Source: Streptomyces sp. HPF1205
GTDB lineage: Bacteria > Actinomycetota > Actinomycetes > Streptomycetales > Streptomycetaceae
Direction: 5' to 3'
Length of the DNA: 64,000 nt
Assembly: GCF_020400825.1 (NCBI RefSeq)
Contig: NZ_JAINVH010000010.1
Span: 1-64,000, forward strand
Position numbers and translations under genes: made by a program. Below, one piece after another: positions 62,151 through 64,000 of the stretch (the stretch's first letter is position 1; each line of letters begins with the position of its first letter). Under the pieces are notes generated by a model that worked only from the letters and a program-made list of their open reading frames with translations, did no database searches and was not told the origin of the DNA.

Positions 62151-63040
62151 CCCGCTGGCTCGTGACCGGAGCCGGCGGGATGCTCGGCCGGGACCTGACC
62201 GGTGTACTGGCCGCCCGGCCGGGCGCGTCGGTCACCGCGGCGCCCCGGGCGGCGCTCGACATCACCGACGCGGCCGCGGTCGAAGCCGCCGTCGCGGGGC
62301 ACGACGTCGTCGTCAACACGGCGGGCTGGACGGACGTGGACGGTGCCGAGGCGGACGAGGCGGCCGCCGCGCGGGCCAACGCGGGCGGCCCGCGCCTGCT
62401 CGCCGGGGCCTGCGCCCGCCACGGCGCGGTGCTCGTGCACCTGTCCACGGACTACGTCTTCCCCGGCGACGCGGGCCGCCCCTACCCGGAGGACGCGAGG
62501 TGCGCGCCGCTGAACGCGTACGGCCGGGGCAAGCTCGCGGGCGAGCGGGCGGTGCGCGAACTGCTGCCGGAGCGCGGCTTCGTGGTGCGCACGGCGTGGC
62601 TGTACGGCGCCCACGGCCGCAACTTCGTCGCCACCATGCTGGCGCTGGCCGGGCGGCGGGAGACCGTCGACGTGGTGGACGACCAGGTGGGGCAGCCGAC
62701 GTGGACGGGCGCGCTGGCCGGGCGGCTGACCGAGTTGGGCGAGGCGGCGCTCGCCCGCCGGGCCCCGGCGGGCGTGTACCACGGCACCGCGAGCGGCCAG
62801 GTGAGCTGGTACGGGCTGGCCCGCGCGGTCTTCGAGCTGTCCGGGCTGGATCCGCGCCGGGTGCGGCCGACCACCTCCGACCGGTTCCCGCGGCCGGCGC
62901 CCCGGCCCGCGTACAGCGTGCTCGGCCACGCGGGGTGGGCGCGCGCGGGCATGGAGCCGATGCCGGACTGGCGCGCACAGCTCGCGGCGGGGCTGCCGGC
63001 GATCAGGCGCGCGGCGGCGCGGGCGGCGGCCGGCGGCTGA
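62147..63040 (+). CDS. rmlD: dTDP-4-dehydrorhamnose reductase
   Basis: The 297-residue SDR has WLVTGAGGMLGRDL, VVNTAGWTDVDGAEADEAAAARANAGGP, LSTDYVFPG, and the catalytic YGRGKLAGE (Y-x3-K), matching RmlD. It reduces dTDP-4-dehydrorhamnose to dTDP-L-rhamnose, completing the pathway with rmlA, rmlB and rmlC in this locus. ATG at 62147 overlaps the rmlB stop. A strong 16-bp terminator follows. Confidence 0.95.
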   Translation: MTRWLVTGAGGMLGRDLTGVLAARPGASVTAAPRAALDITDAAAVEAAVAGHDVVVNTAGWTDVDGAEADEAAAARANAGGPRLLAGACARHGAVLVHLSTDYVFPGDAGRPYPEDARCAPLNAYGRGKLAGERAVRELLPERGFVVRTAWLYGAHGRNFVATMLALAGRRETVDVVDDQVGQPTWTGALAGRLTELGEAALARRAPAGVYHGTASGQVSWYGLARAVFELSGLDPRRVRPTTSDRFPRPAPRPAYSVLGHAGWARAGMEPMPDWRAQLAAGLPAIRRAAARAAAGG

Positions 63041-63096: not shown

Positions 63097-64000
63097 TCAC
63101 TCCTGCCGCAGGAGCCCGAGGAGTTCGCGCGGCAGGCCGTGCGTGTCGTGCAGGTAGCGGTAGTCGTCCTCACCGAGCGGGCCGGTGAACCGCTGCCGGG
63201 AGAGCACCTTCCTGCCGCGTTCCAGGAGCGTGCGGAAGCGGTGTTCCTCGTCGAGGAGCACCTCCCGGACCCGGCCGGACCCGGCGGGCGGCTGCCCGAA
63301 CCGGTCCAGTGTCCCTCCCAGGAGGCCGTCGGGGAGGTCGGCGAGGGTGCGGGACGGATCGTGCCGCCACAAGGTGGTCAGCGTCCGGCGGACGAGCCGG
63401 CGCAGCACGTAACCGTGGCCGTTGCCGCCCGGTCGCACGTCGTCGCCGATGACGACGGCGGCCGAGCGCAGGTGGTCGCACACCAGGCGCAGCGCACGTC
63501 CCTCGACGCCCCACAGGCGGGAGACCTCACCGGTCCACGGCAGGAACTCGTCGACGCCGAAGACCGACCGGCTCCCGCCGAGCACCATCACCAGCCGCTC
63601 CAGGCCCATCCCGGTGTCGACGCTCCGGCGGGGCAGCGGGGTCAGGCTGCCGTCGCCGTGCCGCCGGTAGCGCATCATCACGTGGTTCCACACCTCGACC
63701 CATCCGGGGTCGGTGGTGGGGGTGCCGCGCGGCGGCCCGTCGCCGTTCCAGACGAAGATCTCCGAGTCCGGGCCGCAGGGGCCGGTGGGGCCGTTGGACC
63801 ACCAGTTGTCCTCCCCGGTGAGTTCGACGGGCACTCCCAACTCCTGCCAGGTGCGCAGCGAGCCGGTGTCGGGGCCGGTCCGGTCGTCGCCGCCGAAGAC
63901 GGTGGCGTGCAGCCGGCCGGGGGCGATCCCGAAGCCGTCGACGAGCAGTTCCCTGGCCCAGCGCAGGCTCTGCGAGGATTCGTAACCGCCCAGCGACCAG
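63097..64000 (-). CDS. Short alanyl-tRNA-synthetase-like protein (5' end beyond the window)
   Basis: The visible 300 residues contain the AlaRS catalytic core (GGYESSQSLRWARELLVDGFG, GEDNWWSNGPTGPCGPDSEIF, VDTGMGLERLVMVLGG), part of the aminoacylation and tRNA-recognition domain (VCDHLRSAAVVIGDDVRPGGNGHGYVLRRLVRR, then YLHDTHGLPRELL), and the natural stop LGLLRQE. Standard AlaRS continues for another 400 residues with an editing domain and C-Ala domain, both absent here. The N-terminus is beyond position 64,000; estimated total near 390 residues. Whether it charges tRNA or serves a biosynthetic role is not shown. Confidence 0.88.
   Translation of the reverse strand, partial: WSLGGYESSQSLRWARELLVDGFGIAPGRLHATVFGGDDRTGPDTGSLRTWQELGVPVELTGEDNWWSNGPTGPCGPDSEIFVWNGDGPPRGTPTTDPGWVEVWNHVMMRYRRHGDGSLTPLPRRSVDTGMGLERLVMVLGGSRSVFGVDEFLPWTGEVSRLWGVEGRALRLVCDHLRSAAVVIGDDVRPGGNGHGYVLRRLVRRTLTTLWRHDPSRTLADLPDGLLGGTLDRFGQPPAGSGRVREVLLDEEHRFRTLLERGRKVLSRQRFTGPLGEDDYRYLHDTHGLPRELLGLLRQE

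Follow-up and report, generated by a model that had tools for sequence, protein, structure and literature searches.

An alanine-poor alanyl-tRNA synthetase core behind an alanine-codon leader: a probable stress-inducible auxiliary enzyme of actinomycetes

The minus-strand open reading frame at the end of the window (the whole 64,000-nucleotide stretch of DNA analysed) is confirmed as a real gene, and the alanyl-tRNA synthetase (AlaRS) core that it encodes is not a fragment but a member of an actinomycete family. It is probably an auxiliary, stress-inducible enzyme of the AlaS2 type, made when Ala-tRNA is scarce and serving to recharge tRNA(Ala). Control at alanine codons, a message that needs hardly any Ala-tRNA and a largely intact alanine-activating site lead together to this reading, that of an emergency enzyme restoring Ala-tRNA. 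Spare synthetases that can be induced, and attenuators built on leader peptides, have precedents, and the leader itself is on record in one species; we have found no description of a shortened AlaRS without editing domain that persists in several actinomycete families nor, above all, of so marked a depletion of alanine combined with contrary choices of alanine codon in leader and gene.

The frame runs on past the window end (on contig C2, whose coordinates continue those of the window, it stays open over 428 codons; Table 1). The 5' part, which the initial annotation had left unread, carries the gene to a likely GTG start at contig position 64266, giving a protein of about 389 residues, with a leader ORF upstream. 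An alternative GTG, which would give 413 residues, was set aside: its position falls within the leader RNA. In profile searches the protein covers positions 5-404 of the 552 in Pfam tRNA-synt_2c, scoring 251 bits, and stays below the cut-offs of the NCBIfam alaS model (269.7 bits against 457.05) and of PRK01584 (283.3 against 529). It ends 10 residues after the conserved Pro of the DTHGLP motif (E. coli P404), the family median being 11 (range 8-32, n=94), and so stops ahead of both the editing and the C-Ala domains, as first claimed. No sign of a frameshift restoring the editing domain was seen at the locus, where rmlD ends convergently at 63040, and the reading frame closes at about the same place in all 95 loci compared, the own one among them. 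The genome does hold a second, full-length alaS, which the initial annotation had advised looking for, at C122:26265-27938 in an open frame of 1063 codons. A search of the same genome for a free-standing trans-editing protein gave tRNA_SAD matches only in alaS and in one 839-codon frame, taken to be ThrRS. Upstream of the leader and divergent from it lies a gene for a Peptidase_A4 (eqolisin) family protein (L003:4986-6017, contig 64986-66017).

Table 1. Positions of the AlaRS-core gene and of the elements upstream of it
Feature	Position	Strand	Remark
AlaRS-core gene (AlaS2-like), 3' part in the window	63097..64000	-	rest beyond window end
Whole AlaRS-core gene	contig C2 63097-64266	-	likely GTG start, about 389 aa
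3:4 hairpin with GAAA loop	contig C2 64342-64367	-	beyond window end
Leader ORF MDGTRITATARATSSPVAAA	contig C2 64384-64446	-	beyond window end
Putative -10 element TACGGT	contig C2 64453-64458	-	beyond window end

Within the genus, 15 of 35 genomes (the own one counted) have an AlaRS core of this kind, 65-75% identical to the own copy; the canonical alaS of the genus genomes reach only 39-42%. A scan of the taxonomic family (E <= 1e-90, one match per genome) found the core in 97 of 394 drawn genomes, counting the own genome and the genus carriers, and a scan of the phylum (E <= 1e-80) gave matches in 4 of 396, the own one included, one of them a distant relative at 48%. Named genomes yielded 149 relatives, of which the best 80, at 62-74% identity, come from Streptomyces, Kitasatospora, Streptacidiphilus, Nocardia, Kribbella, Nonomuraea, Actinoplanes, Pseudonocardia, Actinospica and others. 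From the 95 loci compared, L051, which is the same contig as L036, was dropped to leave 94; L061 and L068 have no start by rule, leaving 92; L055, L110, L127 and L082 have no leader by rule, leaving 88, and of these four L055 and L127 show one under a looser listing. In a midpoint-rooted tree of 28 of the 94 members and 7 alaS, from which the alaS row of genome G190 is missing, the members form one side of a branch with support 100/99. The model of one member (L050, Streptomyces sp. WM6378; mean pLDDT 82.4) superposes on the E. coli AlaRS core (3hxu) with a TM-score of 0.82 by query length.

That the gene is what decay has left of a duplicated alaS is the least credible of the readings weighed, and for the family as a whole hardly tenable. 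In its favour, the own copy is richer in alanine than most relatives and carries several unusual residues, among them an Arg at a site with Glu in 79 of 94 members and Gln in 13, and a Gly at a site with Asp in 90 of 94. Against it, the end region is shared by 95 loci, the pocket residues are invariant, a conserved gene-specific leader precedes the gene, and dN/dS has a median of 0.45 over 78 pairs of 13 genus loci (NG86; L040 and L049 left out), the six closest pairs giving values of 0.15-0.51.

Clustering of the called ORFs of at least 70 codons within 7 kb brought out no neighbour with a fixed place across different genera. The largest cluster covers 13 of 94 loci, 12 of them Kribbella; recurrent neighbours in fixed order are confined to Kribbella and to one group of Streptomyces, and generic families (P450, phosphatases and regulators, named by sequence reading) recur at scattered places. 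The rhamnose/glycan genes beside the own AlaRS core look coincidental, as the initial annotation had allowed, rather than recurrent partners. Its proposal of a biosynthetic role is not supported, because no pathway genes recur nearby; its other proposal, a resistance pathway, is half borne out, the evidence favouring a stress-inducible backup of Ala-tRNA supply over a drug-modifying pathway. A backup of this kind is counted as intrinsic antibiotic resistance in PMC7157823 (here and below, what is said of papers cited by PMC number concerns the parts of their text available to us). No dedicated tRNA(Ala) gene was found in the 58 of 95 loci scanned, three of which contain tRNA-like genes (Ser and Met; Thr; one undefined). 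At L050, L052, L054, L057 and L062, all of one Streptomyces group, a same-strand gene follows 47-99 nt after the AlaRS core, its product presumably resembling Sua5/YrdC/YciO.

The catalytic core had been described as intact, and for the pocket this is borne out: R69, D76, W170, E209, N212, D235, G237 and R242, the eight residues that we take to form the Ala/ATP pocket, are identical in 94/94 members, as is V214 (residues, N303/D400 among them, are numbered as in E. coli AlaRS with the initial Met left out, and given the roles assigned to them there). With R69, W170, N212, D235, G237 and R242 all in place, the class II core is that of canonical bacterial AlaRS; the differences are the missing editing and C-Ala domains, the score below the NCBIfam cut-off, and the missing motif-2 Arg (E. 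coli R85), absent from 94/94 members and present in 12/12 alaS compared. Against E. coli and 11 actinomycete alaS, C181 is replaced by Asp and F96 by Trp in 94/94 and Q217 by Arg in 92/94; neither the members nor the 11 actinomycete alaS have the motif-2 loop with K73. In the tRNA domain the Arg-rich helix R310/R311/R314/R315 is kept in 94/94. The Asn that recognises G3:U70 is kept in 57/94, the own copy having Gly, and the corresponding Asp position holds D in 71, E in 22 and Q in 1; Asn and D/E occur together in 57/94. Because the pocket is kept, R85, C181 and F96 are changed and the G3:U70 Asn and Asp vary, activation of alanine by the family enzyme appears likely but not certain, and recognition of tRNA less sure.

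N-terminal fragments of E. coli AlaRS of 461 and 385 residues have been made, and the 461-residue fragment charges tRNA. The tRNA domain of the members ends about 50 residues short of that fragment. These fragments and Methylomonas AlaRS429 share the same core and are active without the editing domain, and differ from the family in being laboratory truncations rather than natural genes, with more of the tRNA domain kept in those of 429 and 461 residues. The activity of the 429-residue fragment was seen in a PPi-release assay (PMC12143591). Loss of the editing and C-Ala domains makes for a shorter protein, at a likely price in fidelity. Misactivation of Ser by the editing-free core is plausible, since a Val and a Leu position of AlaRS associated with acceptance of Ser in a 2025 paper are conserved (V in 94/94, L in 91/94).

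A natural protein of similar build is AcmF of ascamycin, likewise a truncated AlaRS-like protein with only aminoacylation and tRNA domains and no editing domain (PMC12945691). It is nevertheless highly improbable that the family enzyme is a transferase of that type, passing alanine carried by Ala-tRNA on to a small molecule: the adenylate-forming Asn and Asp, both kept in 94/94 members here, are Gln and Glu in AcmF (PMC12945691), the spacing of these key residues is 13 in AcmF (Q219-E232, published numbers) against 23 here, and no biosynthetic cluster recurs nearby. Another recipient is conceivable for an enzyme that does activate alanine (or lactate), namely a carrier protein, a protein lysine or a small molecule instead of tRNA. 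The shortened tRNA domain and variable G3:U70 Asn would suit this, ligases loading Ala onto carrier proteins (aa:CP ligases) are listed among the outcomes of aaRS paralogs (review PMC9437257), and AlaRS can act as a lactyltransferase (PMC12143591). We consider it quite improbable all the same, in view of the invariant Arg-rich helix, the lack of a recurrent partner gene across genera among the nearby called ORFs of at least 70 codons, and the alanine-codon control and alanine-poor mRNA described below, which fit a supply of Ala-tRNA better.

Members of the family contain on average 1.5% alanine (n=92); 24 of the 92 have none, and are thus proteins in 19 amino acids, 30 have at most one, and the own copy has 10 in 389 residues. 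The aligned core of 11 alaS has 7.2%, and 526 neighbouring ORFs 13.5%, only 2 of them lying at or below the family's maximum of 6.9% (these are stop-to-stop frames chosen by GC pattern, some of which may be wrong frames). Alanine is the sole strong outlier in composition relative to the neighbours (z -4.56; the next, lysine, is at -0.87, and the highest, Asp, at +1.54), and none of the invariant columns of 28 aligned members is alanine. The six most alanine-rich members, with 17-28 alanines, all belong to the own genus. Codon choice is shifted as well: GCC accounts for 492 of the members' 547 Ala codons (90%, against 51% in neighbours) and GCG for 31 (5.7%, against 39.6%), while third bases of Gly, Pro, Thr and Val codons differ from neighbours by at most 0.09. 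A second, overlapping draw (29 of 30 loci read, 28 with a start; 13 of the 29 share their protein with the first set) gave a mean of 1.3% alanine in the 28, with GCC at 135 of 141 Ala codons and no GCG. The idea of cognate bias is said to go back to Alves and Savageau. In the available parts of the literature, found by terms other than alanine depletion itself, we met no description of this depletion or of a truncated actinomycete family.

The upstream regions share a conserved element, a leader ORF identified by rule in 88 of 92, own included (the own leader lies outside the 64-kb window), with a consensus close to MNVTGRSTTATARATSSPVAAA. Counted back from the stop, positions -9 and -3 are Ala in 88/88, position -13 is Ala in 84/88 and position -11 in 74/88, and the CGA Arg codon at -10 is invariant (88/88). 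Here alanine is written the other way: GCC stands at -13, -11 and -9 in only 2, 1 and 1 of 88, the control codons being GCG, GCA and GCT. The transcript is probably leaderless; TANNNT or TANNNC, found 12-13 nt ahead of the leader ATG in 70/88, fits such a start. The exact leader pattern was seen in gene carriers alone: in 13 of the 15 carriers among the 35 genus genomes, and in 3 of 396 phylum genomes, own included; the own leader matched no known RNA family at gathering score.

The RNA falls into four segments on the plan of a classical attenuator, with 1:2 pairing within the ORF, 2:3 between ORF and hairpin, and 3:4 forming a GC-rich hairpin with a GAAA loop and no U-tract; the Ala codons at -13, -11 and -9 fall on segment 1 or immediately ahead of it, and precede segment 2. 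When segment 4 is still unmade, folding predicts 2:3 for 3/88 loci in the absence of a ribosome and for 88/88 with one halted at Ala -13, -11 or -9; for a ribosome at -3 or at the stop the count is 0/88. In equilibrium folding of the full leader, 3:4 persists even with a stalled ribosome: 2:3 has means of 0.23-0.36, exceeds 0.5 in 23/88 for a stall at -11 and stays at 0 in the own leader, and accessibility of the SD hardly alters with the stall (up by over 0.1 in 6/88, down in 4/88). Covariation is weak (pair 28-h6 is broken in 16/88, with both sides changed in 3), conservation being that of sequence. A further pairing, 4:5, that might free the SD has 9 or 10 of its 10 pairs in 43/87 leaders, against 5% of mononucleotide-shuffled tails, but thermodynamic folding lent no support to release.

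The leader has been reported from one species. In a 2021 study, AlaL (SLIV_01313), MNVIGRNIFATARATSSPVAAA, precedes the 'alaS' SLIV_01315 at 270 kb on the S. lividans chromosome, and is presented as a leader type previously undescribed in bacteria (PMC8079986). Genome G609 has a leader identical to AlaL at 22/22 residues before a truncated member (404 aa from ATG) and carries a full alaS as well; a leader ORF of the AlaL type is present by rule in 88 of 92 loci, and the exact published peptide at L171. In S. coelicolor, unlike alaS (SCO1501), alaS2 (SCO7600) depends on both WblC and tetracycline (PMC7157823); we infer, on grounds other than their own sequences, that SCO7600 and SLIV_01315 are family members. 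The WblC box, GAAAWY (PMC7157823), occurs 44-47 nt before the leader ATG in 30/88 loci, where 200 mononucleotide shuffles gave a mean of 0.56 and a maximum of 4, and an A/T-rich hexamer occupies this position in 47/88, against 4/88 at a control position; the own locus differs in having no box. The two papers call the gene an alanyl-tRNA synthetase and, in the parts available, make no mention of truncation, alanine depletion or spread beyond Streptomyces (PMC8079986, PMC7157823). Attenuators have been predicted before Streptomyces trpS and leuS in a paper whose available text nowhere contains 'alaS' or 'alanyl' (PMC1262725).

The same data could be read differently, the leader sensing slow or drug-stalled ribosomes in general, for instance at the invariant CGA, instead of Ala-tRNA, and AlaS2 being one of many translation-maintenance enzymes of the WblC regulon. 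The constancy of the CGA in 88/88 loci, the box in 30/88 and the WblC and tetracycline dependence of SCO7600 (PMC7157823) would all agree with this. We find it unlikely, since the CGA also sits in the 1:2 hairpin, which explains its constancy otherwise, and since general sensing would explain neither the singular depletion of alanine (against a lysine value of -0.87) nor the shifted Ala codons.

For the emergency enzyme restoring Ala-tRNA we envisage the following course. A probably leaderless transcript would open with the short ORF, its Ala codons at -13, -11 and -9 placed at segment 1 and before segment 2. With Ala-tRNA plentiful, folding predicts that the ribosome would reach the stop and cover segment 2, so that 3:4 forms and expression stays low; with Ala-tRNA scarce it would stall at the Ala codons, 2:3 would pair before segment 4 is made, and the gene would be expressed. 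In the many relatives with a WblC box, ribosome-targeting stress may add to induction. Because the mRNA has few Ala codons, mostly GCC, it should remain translatable during the shortage, and the enzyme would then activate alanine and recharge tRNA(Ala), having given up proofreading and most of the normal AlaRS length.

A bolder form of this reading, which we put forward tentatively and credit with a little less than an even chance, is that of a starvation-proof synthetase: an AlaRS core rewritten by selection until nearly free of alanine, stripped of editing, C-Ala and part of the tRNA domain, and made when Ala-tRNA is gone, which would recharge tRNA(Ala) without proofreading and accept mischarging with Ser or Gly, so that the stress response comes with a burst of mistranslation. 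The shortened form and its loss of alanine, with the opposed codon choices, would in themselves be an exceptionally clear example from nature of a protein fitted to a shortage of the amino acid that it handles. They open to test what portion of AlaRS suffices for charging inside a cell, which Ala isoacceptor is first to lose its charge and whether a stressed Streptomyces accepts mistranslation.

A close parallel is the auxiliary antibiotic-resistant TrpRS of Vecchione and Sello (2010), reportedly under ribosome-mediated transcriptional attenuation. Both systems have a second synthetase beside the housekeeping one and a leader peptide with cognate codons; they differ in that TrpRS is reportedly full length, whereas AlaS2 is shortened and poor in its cognate amino acid.

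Two further observations concern the reach of the family. In G190 (contig C79; L133/L135), of another actinobacterial family, the distant standalone AlaRS core at 48% identity sits beside a full alaS and extends deeper into the tRNA domain (to Pfam position 434); a search for the leader pattern there gave no match. Among phage records the best match is 36%, and family members are found on 8 large plasmid records (H1-H8) of Streptomyces and Streptantibioticus, including both S. cattleyicolor megaplasmid records, with matches at 60-80% identity, 4 of them annotated 'alanine--tRNA ligase-related protein' and 4 with no listed gene.
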